Of a stretch of 49,109 nt of DNA, positions 31,635 through 42,840 are shown one piece after another; position 1 is the stretch's first letter; each line of letters begins with the position of its first letter. Source of the stretch: Clostridia bacterium. Its GTDB lineage: Bacteria > Bacillota > Clostridia > Oscillospirales > CAG-272. Where the stretch lies: NCBI GenBank assembly GCA_017411605.1, contig JAFQPR010000026.1, positions 1 through 49,109 of the forward strand. Direction: 5' to 3'. The translations under genes were made by a program, and so were the position numbers. Below the pieces are notes generated by a model. That model ran no database searches and was not told the DNA's origin. It saw only the letters and a list, made by a program, of their open reading frames with translations.

Positions 31635-31856
31635 GTGGGAAAATATAAAAACAGACTCAAAGATCTGAGGCAAGATAAAGATATGACGCAGGCGCAAATC
31701 GCAAAATTGTTCTTTCTTCAACCGACACAATACAGAAGATATGAAAACGGAGAGAGTGATCTTCCCCTTGAATGGGCGAAGAAATTTGCAATTTATTATG
31801 ACGTTTCAATCGACTACATAGCGTGCTTGACCGATATACCCCGCAAACCAATTTAA
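31635..31856 (+). CDS. Small XRE-family helix-turn-helix protein
   Basis: A 73-residue DNA-binding protein that is nearly all HTH: LKDLRQDKDMTQAQIAKLFFLQPTQYRRYENGESDLPLEWAKKFAIYYDVSIDYI. I start at GTG 31635 because CGAGGT lies seven bases before it; the frame is open from a TTG at 31584 but the extra 17 residues do not look like part of the fold. It follows the exporter genes by 52 bp and probably shares their transcript. Target unknown. Confidence 0.75.
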   Translation: MGKYKNRLKDLRQDKDMTQAQIAKLFFLQPTQYRRYENGESDLPLEWAKKFAIYYDVSIDYIACLTDIPRKPI

Positions 31857-31879
31857 ATAAGATGATTCATTTATGCAAA

Positions 31880-31926
31880 AAAGAGCGAAGATTCCGTCAA
31901 AAAAATAACGGGCTCTTCGCTCTTTT
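31880..31926. terminator. Bidirectional terminator between the XRE gene and AraC regulator 1
   Basis: AAAGAGCGAAGA (31880-31891) and TCTTCGCTCTTT (31914-31925) form a perfect 12-bp stem with A and T runs on the two sides. Confidence 0.85.
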
Positions 31927-31960
31927 ATATTTGTTTTTTATGGGTTTGAATGATTCCGCT

Positions 31961-32818
31961 TTACGAGTCCGACTGAGGATGAATAACTGCGGTTTTTTTC
32001 TTTCTGTATTCCTTTGGGGATAAGCCCGTATGCTTGCGGAAAGCGGTACAAAACTGCGAACTATCGGTAAATCCAACCTCGTCGGATATTACGCCAACCG
32101 AGAGGTCGGTTTCCTTTAAAAGCCGCTTTGCCACTCTTATTTTCTCACTTATCACCGCCTGATGAATTGTAATACCGGTTATTTTTTTAAAAATTCTGTT
32201 CAGGTAGAACGAATGGTATCCGAACTCCGCGGATATTTCGGAATTGCTTATATCTCTATCGTAATTCTGTTGGATATAAAGATTTATTTTTTGAACGGTT
32301 ACGTTGATATCGGGAATCTTCGCGTTGGCATTTTCCACGATATAACAAAGTATCTCCTTGAGAAGAGATGACGTTAATGCATCCGAGCACGTCGAGGGAT
32401 AGCAAAAATGAGCAAGGCACTCCTGCATTTTTTCTTTTACTTCAAAGGCGTTTTCGATTGCTATAAGCCTTTCAAGCTCTTTTGGCGGAGTATTCTCAAA
32501 AATCAGCGCGGTATCAAAGCTTTTTACCGTTTTCGACGGTTTTATCGGCTTTTTTATATGGGCTTTCGCTCGAGTCATATCAAAATTCAAAACTATGACC
32601 TTTACCTTGCCGTCAAAGTAATACGGCATAGCGGGACGGAAATAAAGAAGCGTTCCCGCCATGAGCGCGATCCTACCATCCTCCAGCACGAGGTCTGCTT
32701 CTCCCTCAATTATGTAAAATATCCTGTAATCGTACGCGCAGCTCAAGGGTGCGCTCGTTACCGCAGACGGCTGAAGCTCCGCATAGCGAAGGAATGGGTT
32801 TATATCACAAAGCTGCAT
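31961..32818 (-). CDS. AraC-family regulator 1 (cupin sensor plus HTH)
   Basis: A 285-residue regulator. The N-terminal ~110 residues form a cupin-type sensor (YDYRIFYIIEGEADLVLEDGRIALMAGTLLYFRPAMPYYF). The C-terminal ~100 residues hold the two AraC helix-turn-helix units (ISNSEISAEFGYHSFYLNRIFKKITGIT and LSVGVISDEVGFTDSSQFCTAFRKHTGLSPKEYR). It is divergent from the U32/QueG-like operon and shares a palindromic promoter region with it, so it is its likely regulator. GAGG precedes the ATG at 32818. It has the same layout as the regulator at 39462-40304 (INPxxRxA start, YDxRxYYI, LNFDxT), so the two are paralogues. Confidence 0.88.
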   Translation of the reverse strand: MQLCDINPFLRYAELQPSAVTSAPLSCAYDYRIFYIIEGEADLVLEDGRIALMAGTLLYFRPAMPYYFDGKVKVIVLNFDMTRAKAHIKKPIKPSKTVKSFDTALIFENTPPKELERLIAIENAFEVKEKMQECLAHFCYPSTCSDALTSSLLKEILCYIVENANAKIPDINVTVQKINLYIQQNYDRDISNSEISAEFGYHSFYLNRIFKKITGITIHQAVISEKIRVAKRLLKETDLSVGVISDEVGFTDSSQFCTAFRKHTGLSPKEYRKKKTAVIHPQSDS

Positions 32819-32866
32819 ATTTACCTCATAGGTTTGTTTTTCAAAATTTTTTGTTTGTATTTTACG

Positions 32867-32898
32867 TTGATTATATCATAGATTTATTTTATAATCAA
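32867..32898. promoter_or_regulatory. Palindromic bidirectional promoter 1
   Basis: TTGATTATA (32867-32875) and TATAATCAA (32890-32898) form a perfect 9-bp inverted repeat with a 14-bp centre. Read rightward it is TTGATT, 17 bp, TATAAT; read leftward it is again TTGATT, 17 bp, TATAAT. Each -35 box overlaps the -10 box of the opposite direction. The start codons are 46 bp (plus, 32944) and 49 bp (minus, 32818) away, each with a good ribosome binding site. Confidence 0.75.
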
Positions 32899-32943
32899 GA
32901 TAGAATATAATTTTTATAAAACTTTGCAACGGAGGATTTGTTT

Positions 32944-33981
32944 TTGAAATACATAGTCGGGCTTCCCGTAAGCGAAAACAGCACTTTTATTGACAACGTA
33001 ATAAAAAAACGCGAGCATATAAAAGAGGTCTACTTTTCCTTTGGTGATTCACCTAGTGGCAGAAGCGCTCTGTCATCCGTTTCAAATATGACTCCCTTTG
33101 AAGCCGAGATGCATCAGGCAACAGCACTGCGCAAGCTTTGCGATTCGGAAATCGGACTCAATCTGCTTTTCAACGCCAATTGCTACGGACGCGATGCGCA
33201 GTCAAGAGCCTTTTTCGGCAGAGTCGGCGATCTTGTTGACTATATCGCGCGTGAATATAAGCTTCTCTCGGTCACAACGTCATCTCCGCTTATAGCAAAA
33301 TTCATCAAGGATAATTTCAATGGAATCGATGTTCGAGCATCGGTAAATATGGAGATAGGCACCGTCGAAGGGATATCTTACGTTGCGGATTATTTTGACA
33401 GCTTTTACGTAAGACGCGAAGCAAACAGAAGCCTCAAAAGTCTTCTCGACCTGAGACGCTATTGCGACGAGATGGGTAAAGAGATGTATCTGCTTGCAAA
33501 CAGCGGATGCTTAAATAACTGCTCGGCTCATATATTCCACGATAATCTCGTAGCGCACGAAAAAGAGATATCGGCTATGGATAACGGATATCAGTTCAAC
33601 GGCGTTTGCTGGGACTTTTTATCAAAAAAGGATAGCCTTGACATTTGGCTTCAGAATACTAACTTTATCCGTCCCGAGGATATCGGTCTTTACGAGGATA
33701 TAACTCCCGCAGTCAAGCTGGCAACGAGAGTCAACTCTTCCCCATCCCGTATACTTGACGCATACATCGACAGAAAATACCGCGGCTCGGTTATGGAGCT
33801 GCTTGAACCTAATCATAGCGGTGTTTTTTATCCAAGCTATATAGAAAACTCTAACTTCAACAAGGATTTTGCAAAGCGGATTATGACTTGCGACAAGAAC
33901 TGCCGTGAATGCGGCTTTTGCGCACAAACAACAAAGGATGCGTGCATAAGGCTTGCAAGCGATCCTTCCGAAGCAGTTTGA
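32944..33981 (+). CDS. U32-like TIM-barrel protein with C-terminal Cys cluster
   Basis: A 345-residue soluble protein. VRASVNMEIGTVEGISYVADYFDSFYVRRE and LLANSGCLNNCSAHIFHDNLVAHE (about 182-206) resemble the U32 family (YhbU/UbiU/RlhA type), whose members carry a [4Fe-4S] cluster and several of which perform oxygen-independent hydroxylations. Cys189, Cys193 and Cys222 are candidate core ligands. An extra C-x3-C-x2-C-x2-C set (Cys316, 320, 323, 326) at the end could hold a second cluster. Start: TTG at 32944, eight bases after GGAGG; a TTG at 32938 is too close. It heads an operon with three QueG-like Fe-S proteins. The family call is by pattern only; the reaction is unknown. Confidence 0.55.
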   Translation: MKYIVGLPVSENSTFIDNVIKKREHIKEVYFSFGDSPSGRSALSSVSNMTPFEAEMHQATALRKLCDSEIGLNLLFNANCYGRDAQSRAFFGRVGDLVDYIAREYKLLSVTTSSPLIAKFIKDNFNGIDVRASVNMEIGTVEGISYVADYFDSFYVRREANRSLKSLLDLRRYCDEMGKEMYLLANSGCLNNCSAHIFHDNLVAHEKEISAMDNGYQFNGVCWDFLSKKDSLDIWLQNTNFIRPEDIGLYEDITPAVKLATRVNSSPSRILDAYIDRKYRGSVMELLEPNHSGVFYPSYIENSNFNKDFAKRIMTCDKNCRECGFCAQTTKDACIRLASDPSEAV

Positions 33982-33996
33982 TAAGGAGATTACTTT

Positions 33997-35076
33997 ATGT
34001 TAACCAGTGAAATGATAAAAAAGGTAGCGCTTGAGGCGGGCGCTGATGCTTGCGGTATCGCGCCCATCTCCCGTCTTGCGGGCGCTCCCGACGATATGAA
34101 TCCGAAATTTCTATTTCCAGAAGCGAAGAGCGTTATCGGATTTGTTTTCCGCATTCCGAGAGGAGTTCAGCGCGGAATTGAGGAAGGTACACAGTTCTAT
34201 CAGTACCCTTCTATGGCTTACGGCGGTATAAACGAGATATTCGCCCCAGCCGTGCTTTACCACGTAGGTAAGCTTATCGAGGACGAGGGGTACGAGGCGT
34301 TCGTTTACAGAAATACGGGTGCTCGCGGAAGCGTTTCCGATATGGACGGCAGCCCCGGAAATACACTTTCTCCCGAGGAGCAGATAGAGATAAACGAGAA
34401 CGCAAAGACCTCGACCGCGCATCACAGAAGCGTTCAGTTCACGCGTCCTACAAGAGATGACAACGTAGCTCCCGACCTGCAGTTCCAGTTCCGCCTCGTT
34501 GCGGTGGCGTGCGGTCTCGGTGAGATAGGCTGGAGCAAGATGCTCCTCACGCCCGAGTTCGGTCCTTTGCAGAGAGTTGCCTTTCTTTTCACGGACGCCG
34601 AGCTTGAATATGACGAGATGTATAACGGCGAGCCGCTATGCAGGAAATGCGGCGCGTGCGTAAGAGAGTGCCCCGGCGGATGCATTCCGCCTATCAATTC
34701 GGGCAAAAAGGTGACCGTTAACCTCGACGGTAAGATCTGCGAGTGGGGTGACATTGATATGTGGCGCTGCTACGCATTCTACACTCACGCAGGACGGTAT
34801 TATAATCCTTTCGTGCCAAAAGAAGTCTTTGACGCGAACGAAAACGGCGATCTTGACCTTCTTGAGGGTAAGACCGACATTGCGGATGAGAAAGAGATAA
34901 TGAAGGTCTACGGCGCTCTGCAAAAATACTTCCCGAGCTGGGTTGGCTATAATATGGCAAAATGCGGCGGCTGCATACGCGGTTGCGTTTCAATGCTCGA
35001 AAAGAAGGGCGGCTGCATGGAAAACAGATTTAAAGAGCCCCTTCGTCACGGCAAGCCCTGGAAGCTTGACAGATAA
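33997..35076 (+). CDS. QueG-like 4Fe-4S protein, paralogue 1
   Basis: A 359-residue cytoplasmic protein of the group often annotated as epoxyqueuosine reductase or 4Fe-4S double-cluster protein. The opening ALEAGADACGIAPISRL and LFPEAKSVIGFVFRIPRG match that group. The first cluster motif is Cys215-x2-Cys218-x2-Cys221-x3-Cys225-Pro. A second set is Cys258 (MWRC) with Cys323-x2-Cys326-x3-Cys330. Unlike true QueG there are no queuosine genes nearby. It has about 45 extra residues (105-150) compared with its two neighbours, plus Cys248 and Cys340. AAGGAG precedes the ATG; 15 bp after the U32-like gene. Confidence 0.75.
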   Translation: MLTSEMIKKVALEAGADACGIAPISRLAGAPDDMNPKFLFPEAKSVIGFVFRIPRGVQRGIEEGTQFYQYPSMAYGGINEIFAPAVLYHVGKLIEDEGYEAFVYRNTGARGSVSDMDGSPGNTLSPEEQIEINENAKTSTAHHRSVQFTRPTRDDNVAPDLQFQFRLVAVACGLGEIGWSKMLLTPEFGPLQRVAFLFTDAELEYDEMYNGEPLCRKCGACVRECPGGCIPPINSGKKVTVNLDGKICEWGDIDMWRCYAFYTHAGRYYNPFVPKEVFDANENGDLDLLEGKTDIADEKEIMKVYGALQKYFPSWVGYNMAKCGGCIRGCVSMLEKKGGCMENRFKEPLRHGKPWKLDR

Positions 35077-35088
35077 GGGAGGATACAT

Positions 35089-35988
35089 ATGCTTACAAGT
35101 GAATTTATAAAGAAAAAGGCAAAGGAGCTCGGAGCGAGCGTTTGCGGTATCGGAAAAATATACGACGAGCCCGATCCCGGCCGAGATCCTTTGCAGATAC
35201 TCCCCCACGCAAAATGCATAATAGGATTCGGATTCGTTATTCCGAGAATGCTGTTTAACACTATGAACCGCGGTGTTCAATATTACACGTATACGACCCT
35301 CGGTGTAAAATACCCCGACGAGGAGCTTGCCGAGATATTCTTACTCAAGATAGGCGGACTTATTGAAAACGAGGGTTATGACGCTTGCTTGCAGAAGGCT
35401 ATACCGAATCTACGTATAAAGGGTGATAAGACTACAAATCCCGAGGTCGTGGACACCTACGAGCTTATTCACGCAACACCCGTAGCGCCGGGGAAGCCTA
35501 CGCCCGACGTTATTATAGACTTTGCGAAGGCGGCAAAGGCCTGCGGTATTGGCGACAAGGGACTAAGCGGAAAGATACTTAACGAAAAATACGGTCCGTA
35601 TATGCGCTATTGCTTTATCATTACCGACGCTCCGCTTGACACGGATGAGCCCATTACTACTCCTATCTGCGACGGATGCGGCGAGTGCATAAAGGCGTGC
35701 CCGGGTCATGCAATCACAGATGAGGGACTCGATAGCTGGCAGTGCTCGGTCTACTATAAGGGCGCGCACAGGTCAAATCCGTTTATGACGGACGACTTTT
35801 TAAAAGGACACCCCGACAGAGAGGCTATAATTTCCGGAGATTACCGCTTTGATGCAAATAGCGCAAGAGCGATATATCCGAGCCTTAACTTTTTACCTAA
35901 CACGCAGTGGGGCTATTCCGCTTGCATCTGCGGAAGAGCCTGCGACCATGCGTGCTACGAGCACCTTATCGGAGGTAAGAAAAAGTGA
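35089..35988 (+). CDS. QueG-like 4Fe-4S protein, paralogue 2
   Basis: A 299-residue paralogue of the flanking proteins. AKELGASVCGIGKIYDE and ILPHAKCIIGFGFVIPR give the family opening. The ferredoxin motif is Cys194-x2-Cys197-x2-Cys200-x3-Cys204-Pro-Gly-His. The second set is Cys219 (SWQC) and the C-terminal CICGRACDHAC (Cys279, 281, 285, 289). The first Cys of that set is one place off compared with paralogue 3 (CSICGRACDVAC), so cluster ligation may differ. The ATG at 35089 follows GGGAGG; the next gene overlaps by 4 bp (GTGA). Confidence 0.75.
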   Translation: MLTSEFIKKKAKELGASVCGIGKIYDEPDPGRDPLQILPHAKCIIGFGFVIPRMLFNTMNRGVQYYTYTTLGVKYPDEELAEIFLLKIGGLIENEGYDACLQKAIPNLRIKGDKTTNPEVVDTYELIHATPVAPGKPTPDVIIDFAKAAKACGIGDKGLSGKILNEKYGPYMRYCFIITDAPLDTDEPITTPICDGCGECIKACPGHAITDEGLDSWQCSVYYKGAHRSNPFMTDDFLKGHPDREAIISGDYRFDANSARAIYPSLNFLPNTQWGYSACICGRACDHACYEHLIGGKKK

Positions 35989-36923
35989 AAGAAAGAATAA
36001 TTGAGCTTTGTAAAAAATGCGGCGCAGACCTCGTTGGATTTGCGCCGATAGAACGCTTCCCGGAGGACTCCGCCGTACGAAAATTAATGCCCGAGGCAAG
36101 GACCGTGATAGGTCTTGCATTCAGAGTACTGCGCGGTATTTACAGAGGAGTCGAGGAAGGAAGCACGTATTATCAATATACCACTATGGCTGTTGAGAAT
36201 ATGGAAGAAACGGTTATGCCAATGGCAACCGTCAGACTCTCTATGATGCTTGAAGAGGAGGGATATCTCGCGCTTCCCCAGCGCCGCCATCAGCAAATTA
36301 TGGCAGAGGAAAACTCGACCAACCCCGAGGTTGCTTACGATGCCGTTTACAGAGGTCGAACAGAGGAGATGCAGATGGACTTTTCCGAGGCGGCGGTTTT
36401 ATGCGGTCTTGGTGAGATAGGCTTACACGGGGCGTTGCTTACCGATGAGTTTGGTCCGTTTGTACGCACCTGCTTCGTTCTTACTGATGCTGTAATCGAG
36501 CCTACGCCCATAAAGAAGGCTCATCTTTGCGACAAATGCGGAGAATGCATCAAAGGCTGCCCAGGTCACGCAATTTCCGATGACGGTAAGGTCGACCCCT
36601 GGCAGTGCGCGGTTTACTATAACGGCGCAAACGGACTCAAAAACCCCTTTATGCCACCCGATGCCTTCCGTAGCTTTGAGGACAGACTTACAATCATAGC
36701 GGGAGAAGCAAAGGTCGATCCCGAAACCGCAAGAAGGATTCTCGATAATATCTATTTCTACCCGCCCGCGCAGCACGCATATCAGTGCTCTATCTGCGGA
36801 AGAGCCTGCGACGTTGCCTGCTACGTGCATCTTGAGGAAAAAGGCGTACTAACCAAAACCTTTAAGACTCCTTTCCGACGCCGCGAGGAATGGAAGTTTG
36901 ATATAAAGGATTTTGATAATTAA
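35985..36923 (+). CDS. QueG-like 4Fe-4S protein, paralogue 3
   Basis: A 312-residue paralogue. KKCGADLVGFAPIERF and LMPEARTVIGLAFRVLRG open the protein. Ferredoxin motif Cys182-x2-Cys185-x2-Cys188-x3-Cys192-Pro-Gly-His; second set Cys208 (PWQC) and Cys268-x2-Cys271-x3-Cys275-x3-Cys279. WQCAVYYNGANGLKNPF is shared in outline with both other paralogues. It begins with GTG at 35985, nine bases after GGAGG and overlapping the previous stop. Last gene of the operon. Three unequal copies suggest a heteromeric electron-transfer or reductase complex; that is inference. Confidence 0.75.
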   Translation: MKERIIELCKKCGADLVGFAPIERFPEDSAVRKLMPEARTVIGLAFRVLRGIYRGVEEGSTYYQYTTMAVENMEETVMPMATVRLSMMLEEEGYLALPQRRHQQIMAEENSTNPEVAYDAVYRGRTEEMQMDFSEAAVLCGLGEIGLHGALLTDEFGPFVRTCFVLTDAVIEPTPIKKAHLCDKCGECIKGCPGHAISDDGKVDPWQCAVYYNGANGLKNPFMPPDAFRSFEDRLTIIAGEAKVDPETARRILDNIYFYPPAQHAYQCSICGRACDVACYVHLEEKGVLTKTFKTPFRRREEWKFDIKDFDN

Positions 36924-36930
36924 TGAAAAA

Positions 36931-36970
36931 ATAACGGAATGCCCGATATGAAGGCATTCCGTTATTTTTT
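36931..36970. terminator. Bidirectional terminator between the QueG-like operon and ygjV
   Basis: ATAACGGAATGCC (36931-36943) pairs perfectly with GGCATTCCGTTAT (36953-36965), with A5 and T6 flanks. Confidence 0.9.
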
Positions 36971-36979
36971 ATTCTTCTT

Positions 36980-37531
36980 TTAATTCTCTGCATCTTCCGA
37001 CGCGGCTTTCTCTGCTTGCCTTTTTTCGGCGTAGAGCCTGAAGAAAAATATCGCAATTGACACAAGGGTAATAATTTCATTAATGATTACCGATATAGAT
37101 CCAACAAATATTGCATAAATTATCTGTGTTATGCAAACAAATATTCCCATTATCTTGGTATTTTGCGGTTTTTTCTGCCAATAACCAAACGTTGCAAAAA
37201 TACAAGAGAACACAGAACAAATACTGTAAACGTTTTTCCACGTCAGTATTATAGCACCGACTCCGATACTCATAAAGAAAGCCAGCCAACCTCGATTTCC
37301 GCTTTTTCCCTTGAGGGAGAGTATAAAGAACGTAAGGCTGCGCAAAACGCCTACAAGAGATACTACCATACCCGAGGTAGCACCCAGCAGAAGAAAGTGG
37401 ACTATCCATATAACGTCGGCAGAAAGCTTTGTAGCTAATATCCGATTTCTCGTTTTCTGCTGAAAGATAAGAAATCCAAGTCCGATCGCAATAAAGCCAA
37501 GGCTTTCCGCTATTATTTCCATAGGTCCCAT
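36980..37531 (-). CDS. YgjV-family membrane protein
   Basis: A 183-residue protein with six hydrophobic segments in the pattern of the bacterial inner-membrane YgjV family (PF10688): SLGFIAIGLGFLIFQQKTRNRILATKLSADVIWIVHFLLLGATSGMVVSLVGVLRS. The family function is unknown. The charged C-terminus follows residue 165. Its ribosome binding site (AAGGTGAG) overlaps the stop of the glycosidase gene upstream, so the two are co-transcribed and probably coupled. A second Met at position 4 is an alternative start. Confidence 0.78.
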   Translation of the reverse strand: MGPMEIIAESLGFIAIGLGFLIFQQKTRNRILATKLSADVIWIVHFLLLGATSGMVVSLVGVLRSLTFFILSLKGKSGNRGWLAFFMSIGVGAIILTWKNVYSICSVFSCIFATFGYWQKKPQNTKIMGIFVCITQIIYAIFVGSISVIINEIITLVSIAIFFFRLYAEKRQAEKAASEDAEN

Positions 37532-37541
37532 ATTTTCAAGC

Positions 37542-39302
37542 TCACCTTATAACAATGCATTTATTCGACTCTATTACCTTACCGCGATAGGATGCAGGCT
37601 CTACGGTAAAATTAGCCGCTATTTCCACGCCGTCCTCATACCTCGTTACGCACACTCCGTTATCAAGCACGCGATAGGACTCTATAAACACAAGCTGCCT
37701 ATCCCAAAGCTCGGAATATTCCTTTGCCGCAGCCGCGATCACAGCCGCATCGGCATCAAGCTCCTCGGGACTGCCCGACGTCAGATCCTCTTCTCCCATC
37801 CAGTTATTGCTGATACCCGTAAATACGTTTTTCTTTGCGGATAAAAATTTAGAGTTAACATAAAACACCGGTTTGCCGCCGAGAAGAGTCATCGTTGATA
37901 CCGCCTCATCCCCCTTTATTGCTGCATTGACGGTGGCGGAGGAAACGTTATAAAGCACTATACCGTGGTAAATAATCTCCATCATCGGAACAACCGCGGA
38001 TACCATTTTATAGTCCTTCGCGAGGAAGGAAAGTCTACTTGAGCGGAAGCAGTTATAAAGCGAGAAATCAAGCTCACCGACGGAGAAGTCACGCATTCCC
38101 TCAGACGAAAAGCCGCCAAGCTTTTCGGTATATAACTTCATTGTTCTGCGAAGTATTTTAATGGACTCGGAAAGCGTTACTCTATGGTTTTCATCGAAGC
38201 ACGTATCAGGACGGCAGATGCTAAGACAATCGACGTAATGAATTCCAAGAAAACCAAGCTCATAGAGGTCGTTAATATCTCGTTCGGCATAACGAAGCTG
38301 AGTTAAAGGGCACGCAGCATACGACATACCTCCGCCCCAATTTCCGTGAGATTTGAGGGATCCGTCAATGCGTTTAACAAGATCTGCAGTATCGAACGTG
38401 CTTGCTATTTCGTAGTGGTCCGCGTGATTGGTATGGCAGGTCAGCTTATATCCGAGAGCGCGCACGTGAGCGACAGTTCTTCGAAGCTCCTCGATTCCGC
38501 CGAGCGCCTCCTCGACGGGAAACAGATCGGGCCATCTTCCGTCGTGGCCTTTCGCGTTCCAGCCGACGAGAGATATTTCCGCGCCCTCAACTCCGTGAGC
38601 CTTAAGTCTGTCCGCAAGCAATCTCACATCGGCAAACGTGCAGGCAACGTGCATCGGCGGCTCGTTTTCGGGCGTCTGATGCAAAATCTCCGGCGGAACG
38701 GGCTTCCAGCCCATACGGACTCTGATAAGCGGATATTTACAAGCGTATTCAAGAGCCTCACGCTCAAGGTATTTCTCGGAAAGAGGTCTTATTTCACCTT
38801 TTTCAAGGCGGTAATTTCTTATAGCCCGCGCTACGTCGTTATAATCCGAGCCTGCGGGAAGCGTTATAACTCTGACGGTGATATCATCACCGAGAGGCTG
38901 AGCCGTCGTTTTGACATTAAAGGAAACTGCGTACTTACCGTCCGACAGAGATGCGCTAAGAACGTAATAATAATTATTCTCTATCATAACCACGTAAGTT
39001 GCGGCGTCCGATGCGGACACGAAGAAGGAGAGTGACGGATTGTCTATTTTTATCTCTTCCCCATCGCCCTTACCGTTAAATCTTATAAGCGCCGTCCCGG
39101 ATGCCTTCTCATCACCCGGTATAAGGTAGTAGCCTCCGTCACCTACCTTACGGGAGAAAGCATCTGCTGTGATATCAATAGCATTTTTATTGGCAAATCT
39201 ATCAGCACCGAGAGAAAAAACTCTTATATTCCCCTCGCGCCTCTCGCAAAAATCGAGAATAGCTCCGTCATCACTTCTTGCGTAAAACTTCAATTCTTCC
39301 AT
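37542..39302 (-). CDS. Putative glycoside hydrolase (DUF5696-like TIM barrel)
   Basis: A 586-residue protein with no signal peptide. Residues 1-190 look like beta-sandwich domains; the middle (about 195-480) has the alternating strand/helix pattern of a TIM-barrel glycosidase, with GAEISLVGWNAKGHDGRWPDLFP, LTCHTNHADHYEIAS, GIHYVDCLSICRPDTCF and GGFSSEGMRDF as candidate active-site loops rich in Asp, Glu and His. The nearest match I recall is DUF5696, a proposed glycosidase family. Substrate unknown; intracellular location suggests it acts on imported oligosaccharides. First gene of a two-gene operon, divergent from AraC regulator 2. AAGGGTG precedes the ATG. Confidence 0.55.
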   Translation of the reverse strand: MEELKFYARSDDGAILDFCERREGNIRVFSLGADRFANKNAIDITADAFSRKVGDGGYYLIPGDEKASGTALIRFNGKGDGEEIKIDNPSLSFFVSASDAATYVVMIENNYYYVLSASLSDGKYAVSFNVKTTAQPLGDDITVRVITLPAGSDYNDVARAIRNYRLEKGEIRPLSEKYLEREALEYACKYPLIRVRMGWKPVPPEILHQTPENEPPMHVACTFADVRLLADRLKAHGVEGAEISLVGWNAKGHDGRWPDLFPVEEALGGIEELRRTVAHVRALGYKLTCHTNHADHYEIASTFDTADLVKRIDGSLKSHGNWGGGMSYAACPLTQLRYAERDINDLYELGFLGIHYVDCLSICRPDTCFDENHRVTLSESIKILRRTMKLYTEKLGGFSSEGMRDFSVGELDFSLYNCFRSSRLSFLAKDYKMVSAVVPMMEIIYHGIVLYNVSSATVNAAIKGDEAVSTMTLLGGKPVFYVNSKFLSAKKNVFTGISNNWMGEEDLTSGSPEELDADAAVIAAAAKEYSELWDRQLVFIESYRVLDNGVCVTRYEDGVEIAANFTVEPASYRGKVIESNKCIVIR

Positions 39303-39388
39303 ATTTACACCCTTTTATTAATTAAAACAAATATTATTCATATCTGCTTTTTTAACGTTGTTATAGCATAAAACTACGCATCTTCGTA

Positions 39389-39420
39389 TTGATTTTAACA
39401 TTTATATATGATATAATCAA
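39389..39420. promoter_or_regulatory. Palindromic bidirectional promoter 2
   Basis: Rightward: TTGATT (39389-39394), 17 bp, TATAAT (39412-39417). Leftward: TTGATT (39420-39415), 17 bp, TAAAAT (39397-39392). The perfect inverted-repeat arms extend to GTATTGATT/AATCAATAC (39386-39394, 39415-39423). It has the same 32-bp size as the element at 32867-32898 and matches it at 25 of 32 positions. It lies between the glycosidase (minus) and AraC regulator 2 (plus). Confidence 0.75.
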
Positions 39421-39461
39421 TACAAAAAGCAAACACGAATTTTGTAAAAAGGAACATTTTT

Positions 39462-40304
39462 ATGAAAACCGAGAATATAAATCCGCATATTCGATTTGCA
39501 ATGACGTTTCGCTATCCTATAAAAGAAACACCGCTGGTTGCATATGACGCGCGACTGTATTATATCACAAAAGGCAAAGGCACGCTTACCGCAAGTAATA
39601 AAACGCTCGAATTTGAAGAGGGCTGCGTGCTGCTGGTACCTGCCGGTATACCGTATTTATTCTCTTCGAATGAAAACGTATACTGCATATGCCTTAATTT
39701 TGATTTCACAAAAAGCAATTCCGATATAGAAGAGCCTATGTTCCCTGCGGATATAAAAAGCTTCAATGCCGACAGCGTATGCGACAAGGTGGTTTTCGAG
39801 GAGCACCCGATTTTAAACGAAGCCGAGGTTTTTAACTCGCAGCAAGGACTGAAAGCAAAATTTGAGAAGATAGAACTCGAATTTATATCTAAAAAGCACT
39901 TATATCGGGAAATAGCTTCCGCAGAGCTTAAGGGAATAATATCAGAGCTTCTGCGCTCGAGCATCTCGGGGCATTCTATTGACGAGAAGATCAACCGAGT
40001 GCTCGCATTCGTTCAAGAGCATTATTCAGAGGATATACAAAACGGAGTTATCGCGGAAAAATTCGGTTATCATCCGTATCACTTGAACAGACTTATGAGG
40101 GCGGCGCTCGGAACAACACTTCATCAGTATCTTATATTCTACCGCATAGAAATGGCAAAAAGATTATTAACGAGCACCGACCTTACGGTAGCGGAAATCA
40201 GCCGCAGGTGCGGATATAATAACTTCAGCAATTTCTCCACCGATTTCAAAAAGAAGACAAGCTACACCCCGCTCGCTTACAGAGAGCGTAGCGCAAGAAG
40301 ATAA
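39462..40304 (+). CDS. AraC-family regulator 2 (cupin sensor plus HTH)
   Basis: A 280-residue paralogue of the regulator at 31961-32818. Cupin-type sensor at about 10-100 (YDARLYYITKGKGTLTASNKTLEFEEGCVLLVPAGIPYLF) and two HTH units in the last ~100 residues (NGVIAEKFGYHPYHLNRLMRAALGTTLHQYL and LTVAEISRRCGYNNFSNFSTDFKKKTSYTPLAYR). It is divergent from the glycosidase-ygjV operon and is its likely regulator, probably answering a sugar. AAAAGGAAC precedes the ATG. Confidence 0.88.
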   Translation: MKTENINPHIRFAMTFRYPIKETPLVAYDARLYYITKGKGTLTASNKTLEFEEGCVLLVPAGIPYLFSSNENVYCICLNFDFTKSNSDIEEPMFPADIKSFNADSVCDKVVFEEHPILNEAEVFNSQQGLKAKFEKIELEFISKKHLYREIASAELKGIISELLRSSISGHSIDEKINRVLAFVQEHYSEDIQNGVIAEKFGYHPYHLNRLMRAALGTTLHQYLIFYRIEMAKRLLTSTDLTVAEISRRCGYNNFSNFSTDFKKKTSYTPLAYRERSARR

Positions 40305-40358
40305 TAAAAAAGCAATATACCAAGTGCTCAATGCTCGAGTCTTAGTATATTGCTTTTT
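40305..40358. terminator. Bidirectional terminator between AraC regulator 2 and pheT
   Basis: AGCAATATAC (40311-40320) pairs with GTATATTGCT (40345-40354), flanked by A6 and T5. It uses the same outer stem as the terminator at 29384-29436. Confidence 0.85.
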
Positions 40359-40407
40359 GTTTATTTCAAGCTAATTTGAAACTTTTGTTTACAAAATTCG
40401 TTTTTTC

Positions 40408-42840
40408 TTATCTTCTCTCAGCGCCAAAGGTCTTCTGGAGCTTCTTCATAACTCCGTTTGCAACCTCTTCAATTTCCTGAGAAGTAAGCGTTTTTTCATC
40501 AGAGCCTACGGCAAGGCGGATAGTAACCGACTTCTTACCCGCCGGAACCTGCTTACCCTTATATTCGTCAACGAAGGAAACGCCGCGAAGAAGTCCGCCC
40601 TTTGCCTTTTCCATGGCAGCCGTGTAAATTTCTTCAAACTTAACCATAGAATCAACAAGGAAGGAAATATCGTAATCGTTGATAGGATATTCCGCAAGAT
40701 GAGTAAACTTATTAGTTCTCGATCTGAAGGGGACGAACTCGTCGATATTAAGTTCAACGAGAACCGCGGAAACAACCTTTATTCCCGCTGTAAGCGCGCT
40801 CTTCTTTGAAAGAAGCGCAATGTCACCGATTCTTTTGCCGTTAAGACAGATATTCTGCCATACAACGTCGTCTGCCCAGAAGGGCTTCTCATCTCTTGTG
40901 AAGGTGAAGCCTTCCATATGAGTATAGGACGGCATAGCGGCGATAATACCCTTTGCGTGGCGGTAGAGCGACTGAATATCCTCGGTCTTGGCTACGAACG
41001 CGCATCCAAGGTGCCTTTCCTGCGTGGGAAGAGCCTCGCCCTTATACTTTTCAGTGTAATTTTTATCTATGAATACGAGGGACTCTTCATAAATATCAAA
41101 CTCATCAAAGTTACGCTCGTTTTTAACGATAGCGCGGCATATATTGGGAAGAAGCGAGCACTTTACGTACTTCTCTGTGGGAGAAGGGGGAGTTGCGAGA
41201 GCAAGAATACCGTCAGTCGAGGGCATGATCGCAGAAACGCACTCATCGCTCATCCAAGGATAAGTGAATATCTCCTGCATACCCGAACGGAAGGCAAGAT
41301 ACTCCTTAACCTTTCTCGTAAGATCGTAGTCAAGCTGATTGATAGCGGAATCAAACGAGGTGGTAATAGTTGTCGCCTCAAAGTTCTCGTAGCCGTACAT
41401 ACGGGCAACCTCTTCCATAATGTCGCACTTCTCTGAAACGTCACCGGTAGAGCGCCAGGTGGGAACAACTATATGCATCATATCCTCGGTAAAGCTTACG
41501 TCGTAGCCCATAATACCGAACTTTTTAGAGATAACTTCCTCGGGAATACGCTTGCCGAGACGGCGCTCGAGCCAATCAAGCTCAACGTCTATTTCGGCGC
41601 GCTTTGTTTTGTGGGGATATACGTCATTGAAGGCAACTAGCTTCATATCGGGATAAAGCTCTGCGAAGAGCTTCATCGCAAGAGAAAGCGCCTGGTCGCA
41701 ACGCTCTGCATCAATAGCCTTCTCGTATCTTGAGGACGCTTCGGTACGGTTATCGTATCTCTGCGCGGTTCTTCTTACACCTCTTGACTCGAAGTTTGCT
41801 ATCTCAAGGATAACGCTGTCGGTTGTGGGAAGAACCGAGTCCTTCGCGCCGCCCATAACGCCCGCAAGAGCAACAGCGCCCTCGGCATCGGCGATTACAA
41901 GGTCATCGGAAACGAGCGAGATATCCTTATCGTTAAGAAGCTGAAGCTTCTCTCCCTCACCTGCTCTGCGAACAGATATATGGTCAATAATGTGATCGGA
42001 ATCGAATACGTGAGTGGGCTGACCTACCGCAAGCATTACGTAGTTTGTTATATCAACGAGAGCGTTGATAGGACGCATACCTACTCTCCAGATGCGGCTC
42101 TGCATAAGGAAGGGCGAGGGCTTAACGCCAAGACCTTCAATTTTTGCGCCGATGTATCTTTGGCATCTCTCGGTGTCCTCAATTCTTACGTCGTAAACCT
42201 CGCTTACGTTCGGTACGAAGGGATCGAACTCGACGAGAGGGAGATCGTAAAGGGCGGCAAGCTCTCTTGCTATACCGTAGTGACCCCAGAGGTCGGGGCG
42301 GTTTGTCATAGACTTATTGTCGATCTCAAGGATGATATCGTTAAGATCAAGAGCATCGGCAAGAGGAGTACCGGCTTTTGCGTCAAACGCGGTAACGTCC
42401 ATAATTTCGTGATCGTCACTTGCAGGGAAAAGATCGGCAAGACCAACCTCTACCGCGGCGCATATCATACCGAAGCTCTGAACACCTCTGAGCTTTGCGT
42501 TCTTTATTTCAACGGGATCGCCCTCGCCGTGCCAACGCACCATAGCGCCGGGGCAAGCAACGACTACCTTCATTCCCGCTTCAAGGTTTGAGCCACCGCA
42601 CACGATATCCTTGATATCCTCTGTGCCGACGTTTACTTTGCAAACACGAAGCTTGTCCGCATTCGGATGAGGAAGAACCTCAAGTATTTCACCTACGACG
42701 ATATTCTTGAACTGATCCGCAAGATTCTCAGCGCCCTCGACCTCAACGGTTGACATAGTGAGATCGTACGCAAGACGGGTAAGGTCCATATCGTCGGGAA
42801 TTTTAACGTAATCCTTTATCCAATTAAGAGATAATTTCAT
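40408..42840 (-). CDS. pheT: Phenylalanyl-tRNA synthetase beta subunit
   Basis: A full-length 810-residue subunit. Domains in order: EMAP/tRNA-binding domain (about 40-150, VVGEILEVLPHPNADKLRVCKV), B3/B4 editing domain (about 215-390), B5 domain (about 400-470), the catalytic-like core, and a C-terminal anticodon-binding FDX-ACB domain (about 715-808, FTHLAEYPINDYDISFLVD). With PheS it charges tRNA-Phe and edits mis-acylated Tyr-tRNA. It lies 24 bp after pheS under the same T-box. Confidence 0.97.
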   Translation of the reverse strand: MKLSLNWIKDYVKIPDDMDLTRLAYDLTMSTVEVEGAENLADQFKNIVVGEILEVLPHPNADKLRVCKVNVGTEDIKDIVCGGSNLEAGMKVVVACPGAMVRWHGEGDPVEIKNAKLRGVQSFGMICAAVEVGLADLFPASDDHEIMDVTAFDAKAGTPLADALDLNDIILEIDNKSMTNRPDLWGHYGIARELAALYDLPLVEFDPFVPNVSEVYDVRIEDTERCQRYIGAKIEGLGVKPSPFLMQSRIWRVGMRPINALVDITNYVMLAVGQPTHVFDSDHIIDHISVRRAGEGEKLQLLNDKDISLVSDDLVIADAEGAVALAGVMGGAKDSVLPTTDSVILEIANFESRGVRRTAQRYDNRTEASSRYEKAIDAERCDQALSLAMKLFAELYPDMKLVAFNDVYPHKTKRAEIDVELDWLERRLGKRIPEEVISKKFGIMGYDVSFTEDMMHIVVPTWRSTGDVSEKCDIMEEVARMYGYENFEATTITTSFDSAINQLDYDLTRKVKEYLAFRSGMQEIFTYPWMSDECVSAIMPSTDGILALATPPSPTEKYVKCSLLPNICRAIVKNERNFDEFDIYEESLVFIDKNYTEKYKGEALPTQERHLGCAFVAKTEDIQSLYRHAKGIIAAMPSYTHMEGFTFTRDEKPFWADDVVWQNICLNGKRIGDIALLSKKSALTAGIKVVSAVLVELNIDEFVPFRSRTNKFTHLAEYPINDYDISFLVDSMVKFEEIYTAAMEKAKGGLLRGVSFVDEYKGKQVPAGKKSVTIRLAVGSDEKTLTSQEIEEVANGVMKKLQKTFGAERR

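Follow-up and report, generated by a model that had tools for sequence, protein, structure and literature searches.

On plasmid pLS20, the -35 and -10 elements of the divergent promoters Pc and Pr are proposed to lie exactly on the -10 and -35 elements of each other; their start sites were determined by primer extension, and Pr is weak, far from consensus and in need of a regulator (Ramachandran et al. 2014, PMC4207663). In bidirectional promoters, symmetry lets RNA polymerase bind in two mutually excluding orientations, and many of these promoters lie between divergent genes (Warman et al. 2026, PMC12825309; PMC10268837). Warman et al. define them by divergent starts 7-25 base pairs (bp) apart around a shared -10, and describe for Escherichia coli that, through competition, a promoter activated in one direction can be repressed in the other (PMC12825309). 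We describe two 32-bp dyads, i.e. sites of two-fold symmetry, in a stretch of 49,109 nucleotides from a Clostridia bacterium (assembly GCA_017411605.1, contig JAFQPR010000026.1; the whole stretch is hereafter the window). Each dyad lies between a gene for an AraC-family regulator and a divergent target gene, and reads as a promoter on both strands. The superimposed-promoter dyad is well supported as a real feature, and the initial annotation of this DNA, which read it as a mutually exclusive switch duplicated at two AraC loci, was partly right.

Both TTGATT-N20-AATCAA sites (N, any base) located by the initial annotation are present in the window. The pattern occurs twice in the 49 kb, compared with a mean of 0.01 in shuffled sequences, and 0 of 100 shuffles reach two. 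The claimed identity of 25/32 positions is correct for the same-strand comparison; when both dyads are turned to read from regulator to target, 27/32 positions agree. The claimed promoter elements are likewise found on both strands of both dyads, with a 17-bp spacer in four of four, a TATAAT -10 in three, and TAAAAT in the one that faces the DUF5696 gene. The extended -10 TG is present in three of the four. The features are as follows.

32867-32898, no strand: dyad 1, two superimposed promoters, TTGATTATATCATAGATTTATTTTATAATCAA; 13/16 symmetric positions; 18/18 promoter-defined positions
32867-32895, plus strand: target promoter 1; -35 TTGATT 32867-32872, 17-bp spacer, -10 TATAAT 32890-32895, no TG
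about 32902, plus strand: predicted start of target promoter 1, from the -10 spacing
32870-32898, minus strand: AraC1 promoter; -35 TTGATT 32898-32893, 17-bp spacer, extended -10 TGA-TATAAT, -10 32875-32870
about 32863, minus strand: predicted start of the AraC1 promoter
39389-39420, no strand: dyad 2, two superimposed promoters, TTGATTTTAACATTTATATATGATATAATCAA; 13/16 symmetric positions; 17/18 promoter-defined positions
39389-39417, plus strand: AraC2 promoter; -35 TTGATT 39389-39394, extended -10 TGA-TATAAT, -10 39412-39417
about 39424, plus strand: predicted start of the AraC2 promoter
39392-39420, minus strand: target promoter 2; -35 TTGATT 39420-39415, extended -10 TGT-TAAAAT, -10 39397-39392
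about 39385, minus strand: predicted start of target promoter 2

On each strand, the four window promoters have at least 9/12 consensus bases of the sigma-A (sigma-70 type) promoter with a 17-bp spacer. A promoter scan of 31800-40500 is unpersuasive by itself, because its 20 matches, which include all four dyad promoters, compare with 13.4 in shuffles (standard deviation 3.4). The predicted divergent starts are 39 bp apart at both loci (32863/32902 and 39385/39424), and the -10 elements do not overlap. The dyads very probably represent superimposed sigma-A-type divergent promoters with candidate activator sites on one side. A bidirectional terminator or RNA hairpin is not favoured, since the dyad is A/T-rich and upstream of both predicted starts; a terminator scan of 31800-40500 finds no site at the dyads.

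The resemblance of the dyads to each other (25-27 of 32 positions identical) could also point to a recent duplication, or a small mobile repeat, that brought the 32 bp to both AraC loci. However, the 60-bp flanks of dyads 1 and 2 match at 15/60 and 16/60 positions in the same orientation and at 31/60 and 21/60 when flipped, the 31 falling on the A/T-rich side that carries the candidate operator, and the middle of the dyad varies among 97 distinct sites pooled from many genomes. With the flanks unmatched beyond the operator side, we reject this origin as extremely improbable. The dyad is neither a duplication nor limited to AraC loci, so the description of a duplicated AraC-locus feature is not supported.

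Recurrence, spacing and gene context of the dyad

The exact pattern recurs in related genomes, which belong to gut bacteria that are for the most part uncultured. The window genome (2.8 Mb) holds 5 sites, compared with 1 for a reversed control; 60 genomes of the genus, the window genome included, hold 60 (control 2), and 29 sites (control 2) are found in 38 genomes from the same order. When the gap is left free from 8 to 32 in the window genome, 28 sites are found (control 3), with 5 at gap 20 and 23 over the other 24 gaps (Poisson 0.003). An A/T-tolerant pattern, TTGATTWTA-N8..20-TAWAATCAA, in which the third base of each -10 is A or T, gives 35 sites in the genus (control 1): 32 at the superimposing gap of 14, the others at 11, 16 and 17, and none at 13 or 15. 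Many loci also share, at the positions expected of a promoter, interior bases that the N20 search left free, namely TAT in each -10 and the TG of the extended -10. When as many as 3 of the 18 dyad positions may mismatch, the window genome has 41 sites (control 5). Divergent open reading frames (ORFs) flank 24 of the 41 and, among the 8 that have TG on both strands, 7.

A search of the genus for two outward extended -10 elements, with the -35 ignored, returns 48 sites (control 2), most commonly at the superimposing gap of 8 (12 sites). The next commonest gap is 3 (9/48), a second extended -10 dyad that mostly reads ATTATACCA-N3-TGGTATAAT; examples are G012:C20:13816, G019:C26:7846 and G051:C56:16408. 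This second dyad may represent one orthologous locus.

The sharp spacing has a simple source. Among the ordinary TTGA...TATAAT promoters of the window genome, 80 of the 100 matches listed have a spacer of 17 bp (spacers of 14-18 searched; 184 plus-strand and 177 minus-strand matches, controls 21 and 22). If each direction chooses its spacer independently, about 98% of superimposed pairs are expected at 17. Therefore, the spacing needs no extra protein. Among 77 ordinary 17-spaced promoters (window sites excluded), 50 have TTGACA or TTGACT as the -35 and 6 have TTGATT; the dyads have TTGATT because the opposite -10 (ATTATA) overlies the -35.

A simple ORF rule was applied to survey the gene context of each of the 60 genus sites. 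Divergent ORFs flank 31/32 of the A/T-tolerant sites compared with 8/28 of the other N20 sites (Fisher 1e-8); a cruder ORF caller, which over-extends starts, gives 24/32 and 2/28. We also define a strict dyad, TTGATTATAnCA-N8-TGnTATAATCAA, with an extended -10 on both strands, and scan it over GTDB with one genome per species. The scan, which has no reversed control and may leave out records very near the window genome, returns 75 stretches, nearly all from Clostridia or clostridial groups by record title. Carriers include Monoglobus, Ructibacterium, many ruminant hindgut bins and one Desulfobacula bin. ORFs are present on both sides of 69 sites, a contig end cuts 4, and one ORF is missing at 2. 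When neighbours are labelled by phmmer with four query regulators, by which distant regulators could be missed, a LysR gene is found at 43 sites, an AraC gene at 9, and two ORFs with neither at 19.

Fourteen of these 19 sites look, by their N-termini, like one orthologous pair (L111, L116, L120, L126, L139, L141, L148, L156, L160, L163, L165, L166, L171 and L176). In L111, which was assigned by Pfam, the pair is an aldehyde-dehydrogenase-family gene, presumably ProA, and a TatD-family gene; the other 13 are matched to it by N-terminus. Monoglobus and Ructibacterium are among the carriers in which this pair, with no recognised regulator, has the strict dyad; L171 is from Ructibacterium gallinarum DSM 107454. 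One dyad-flanking gene is of the HemN-type radical SAM family in L129 and encodes an M20 peptidase in L172. In IMG/VR, the strict pattern has 5 matches, compared with 4 at a gap one shorter, 0 at a gap one longer and 0 for the reversed pattern. There is no clear enrichment, and a general viral element is rejected.

These contexts bear on what the palindrome is. It could be the operator of the adjacent AraC protein, with the promoter match a by-product: the dyads are symmetric and lie in AraC/target intergenic regions. However, such an operator would be specific to cognate AraC loci, and the same dyad is carried by LysR loci and by pairs without a recognised regulator. Moreover, AraC-like direct repeats sit outside the dyad, and the dyad is the part that the two window loci share although their AraC proteins are 31% identical. 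This explanation is largely refuted and, in our estimate, very improbable; the initial annotation had named it as one that would undo its promoter reading. The search of related genomes that it proposed, aimed at divergent AraC genes, finds the pattern between divergent genes, AraC loci included, but also at LysR and non-regulator pairs. Because AraC, LysR and non-regulator pairs share the dyad, it is a core-promoter arrangement and not the operator of one regulator family.

An alternative that escapes a tie to one family is that a global dimeric regulator of the clade, as yet unrecognised, has its operator here and that this operator also overlaps the promoters. The sharp spacing, the two-fold symmetry and the near restriction to Clostridia, despite the generality of the sigma-A consensus, are consistent with it. 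However, the strongly conserved positions are accounted for by the -35, -10 and extended -10 on two strands, the spacing follows from the 17-bp preference of the genome itself, and weaker versions of the dyad grade off like promoters. We consider a global regulator improbable.

Candidate activator sites and a possible orientation switch

To the sides of the dyad, the sites differ by regulator class. We pool 97 distinct sites (26 AraC, 46 LysR, 20 with neither and 5 at edges), oriented from regulator to target; identical sites are collapsed, and sites within 60 bp of a locus end are skipped. Removal of near-duplicates at 80% identity leaves 44 of the 46 LysR, 16 of the 20 neither-regulator and all 26 AraC sites, and the 5 edge sites are excluded. 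The controls for flanking motifs are the mirror side, the other site classes and single-base shuffles.

LysR sites carry, on the regulator side, an inverted repeat ATRR-N4..8-YYAT centred about 30.5 bp before TTGATT in 35/44. The repeat is found in 0/44 on the mirror side, in 0/26 AraC sites and 0/16 neither-regulator sites, and in a mean of 0.9 and a maximum of 4 among shuffles. It is centred near -65 from the predicted target start. LysR proteins classically bind near -65, and, as judged from the sequence alone, the boxes at these loci of other genomes have the form of a LysR recognition site.

AraC sites show a self-repeat of 21-22 bp in the 45 bp before the target -35. The value at lag 22 is 0.433, compared with shuffle maxima of 0.352 (standard deviation 0.010), and 0/500 shuffles reach it. 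No repeat signal is seen on the other side of the AraC dyads (493/500 shuffles reach the value) or at the neither-regulator sites (487/500). In the window, the repeat corresponds to two candidate operators.

32832-32863, plus strand: candidate AraC1 operator; direct half-sites GTTTGTTTTTC (32832-32842) and GTTTGTATTTT (32853-32863), 21 bp apart
39423-39456, minus strand: candidate AraC2 operator; half-sites 39456-39444 and 39435-39423, 21 bp apart, near the target -35

The candidate AraC1 operator is directly upstream of the target 1 -35, and L185 has, by reading, the same spacing and placement; the candidate AraC2 half-sites are likewise found in L195. The AraC2 operator is the weaker claim, because its distal half-site overlaps the likely ribosome-binding site of AraC2. 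Direct half-sites about 21 bp apart that abut the target -35 are the arrangement of an AraC-type activation site, for which araI is the comparison; the match is one of sequence.

The two promoters of a dyad also differ in strength at AraC loci. Among the 18 AraC sites of the genus searches, where both sides are free to vary, the regulator has the better -10 and TG in 14, an equal one in 4 and a worse one in 0 (sign test 1e-4, with some loci being orthologs). The 12 LysR sites from the same searches show no bias (regulator better in 2, equal in 9, target better in 1), and in the strict scan the pattern itself makes the two directions equal at the 8 AraC and 34 LysR sites. The weaker promoter faces the target at each window locus, with no TG at locus 1 and TAAAAT at locus 2, and the difference is retained at the closest homologous loci.

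A mechanism can be outlined from what is observed: the anatomy of the sequence, its spacing and recurrence, the divergent context, the placement of candidate operators on one side and the strength bias at AraC loci. We infer from these the start sites, polymerase exclusion, activation, autorepression and switch behaviour. Each dyad would consist of two antiparallel sigma-A-type core promoters, the -35 of each coinciding with the reverse complement of the -10 of the other, so that, by its geometry, RNA polymerase holoenzyme could face only one way at once. At rest, the regulator would be favoured, because the target promoter is weaker at both window loci. The putative operator of AraC, or elsewhere of LysR, would flank the dyad on the side of the regulator, immediately 5' of the target -35, and would extend across the start and leader of the regulator itself. 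Activator binding there could recruit polymerase toward the target and simultaneously block the regulator promoter; inducer-loaded AraC would thus flip the balance toward the target.

We give a functional switch at the dyads about an even chance. The fuller proposal falls somewhat short of that: the orientation of polymerase may itself be the switch in a DNA cassette of gut Clostridia whose core is a nearly perfect promoter dyad of 32 bp. At AraC loci, a single down-position in the target promoter would load this core toward the regulator, and either activator family, docking on one side, would flip it. If this is true, target activation and regulator shut-off are one physical event, and regulators of different families are exchangeable on one core.

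Homologous loci, other registers and possible promoter drift

The genes around the dyads are as follows.

31961-32818, minus strand: AraC-family regulator 1 (HTH_18, HTH_AraC)
32944-33981, plus strand: target 1, first of four same-strand genes
33997-35076, 35089-35988 and 35985-36923, plus strand: three genes 3' of target 1, with partial similarity to reductive dehalogenase and QueG (epoxyqueuosine reductase) iron-sulfur reductases
37542-39302, minus strand: target 2, DUF5696 protein, weakly similar to glycoside-hydrolase families
39462-40304, plus strand: AraC-family regulator 2, 31% identical to regulator 1

For target 1, a start codon at 32944 is more likely than one at 32938, as judged from the ribosome-binding site and a comparison with the closest homolog. 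Target 1 has no Pfam or NCBIfam match at E 0.001 and no significant match in a PDB sequence search. The similarity of the three downstream genes (33997-36923) to TIGR02486 and TIGR00276 is far below the curated cut-offs. Their close spacing suggests that they are co-transcribed with target 1.

Homologous loci were collected by protein search and not selected by motif; L192, L199, L200 and L202 (partial or about 28-38% matches) are excluded. Homologs of target 1 are found in 9/60 genomes and those of target 2 in 7/60, the window genome included in both. At the locus of the 62%-identity target 1 homolog, dyad 1 is kept at 18/18 positions, and at the locus of the 70%-identity target 2 homolog, dyad 2 is kept at 17/18. 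The 36% target 2 homologs L196 and L197, which are near-identical, have a degenerate superimposed pair (14/18) with TG on both strands. The superimposed pair is not kept at the 35% and 37% target 2 homologs (L198, L201); the 46% target 1 homolog (L189) has separate promoters, and no good promoter is found upstream of the 40-42% target 1 homologs. The architecture is retained in near relatives and evolves beyond them: conservation at orthologous loci, on which the initial annotation had staked its reading, holds for the closest homologs and is lost for target 1 at 54-56% identity.

Regulators searched by family give a measure of frequency. The window genome has 75 AraC-type HTH_18 matches, 73 of them over the cut-off, compared with 2 LysR HTH_1 matches. 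Among the best 30 of the 75, 25 have a divergent ORF; a dyad with at least 15/18 positions is present at 7, all among those 25. LysR genes were surveyed, also without motif selection, as 74 genes in 31 genus genomes (one duplicate of 75 dropped). C85 of the window genome is an additional superimposed LysR site that the ORF rule missed.

Several observations weigh against the reading of the dyads as superimposed promoters with one-sided activator sites. First, the 54-56% target 1 homologs have another promoter arrangement or one poor promoter: the -10 elements are one base closer and the target -35 is weak in L186, L187 has a good regulator promoter only, and L188 has separate promoters. The dyad geometry is therefore not essential. 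Second, the superimposed register is found in 5/52 divergent LysR loci (5/44 with both promoters callable), and near-coincident -10 elements (D=4, 5 loci) and overlapping -35 elements (D=33-39, 10 loci) are as common or commoner there. Third, not every genus site is phylogenetically independent of the others. Fourth, the LysR sites also beat shuffles in the repeat analysis on the regulator side (0.400 at lag 23, compared with 0.366; 0/500), and the LysR-box and AraC-repeat tests were framed after the alignments were viewed. Fifth, five E. coli bidirectional promoters, of different geometry, have basal activity too low for polymerase competition (PMC12825309).

The superimposed geometry thus fails as a rule for LysR genes; the dyad is a recurrent register among several. 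The other LysR registers have forms of their own: L263, L281, L283 and L303 (D=38) have overlapping -35 elements in which TTGACA is read against TGTCAA, and L244, L247, L248, L249 and L294 (D=4) have near-coincident -10 elements.

Compact divergent pairs may instead drift into promoter overlap, with symmetry that saves space and no functional switch. The anatomy would be the same as that of superimposed promoters with one-sided activator sites, and function alone would differ. The coexistence of several overlap registers at LysR loci, the dyads at pairs without a recognised regulator and the low basal competition in E. coli are consistent with drift. However, a single exact register is found again and again, with elements close to consensus on both strands; the candidate operators are one-sided; and at none of 18 AraC loci is the target promoter the stronger one. 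Drift is a serious possibility, though well short of an even chance.

Comparison with known systems

Bacterial use of a polymerase that faces one way on symmetric promoters is hardly studied. The dyads offer about 100 natural sites (97 distinct), near consensus both ways, with one-sided candidate activator sites, and the gene pairs without a recognised regulator are built-in controls. Therefore, competition between polymerase orientations is directly testable on them. In uncultured gut bacteria, regulator-target pairs can also be sought by the dyad, which is a simple sequence signature. The clade-wide, near-perfect and family-independent form has no description among the papers listed by literature searches, which most subscription papers lie outside.

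The kind of superimposition is already known, because it has been proposed for pLS20 Pc/Pr (PMC4207663), and the view of a geometry without precedent is not supported. Like Pc/Pr, the window dyads, each of exactly 32 bp, superimpose -35 on -10 both ways, with a regulator gene on one side. Unlike the single plasmid locus with its weak Pr, the dyads are near consensus both ways and almost perfectly symmetric, and they are found throughout a bacterial clade beside regulators of two families and also where neither is present. They fall outside the bidirectional promoters as defined by Warman et al., since 39 bp separate the predicted starts and the -10 of each promoter coincides with the -35 of the other.

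Two further systems show divergent control between a regulator and its target. In Tn10 tetR/tetA, divergent promoters overlap and the repressor operators lie within the promoter region. The dyads resemble tetR/tetA in their overlapping divergent promoters between regulator and target, but their candidate activator sites are outside the promoters and on one side. In LysR-type divergent control, the likeness is the box at about -65 of the predicted target start at LysR loci; the difference is that the promoters of the dyad are fully superimposed in one fixed register.

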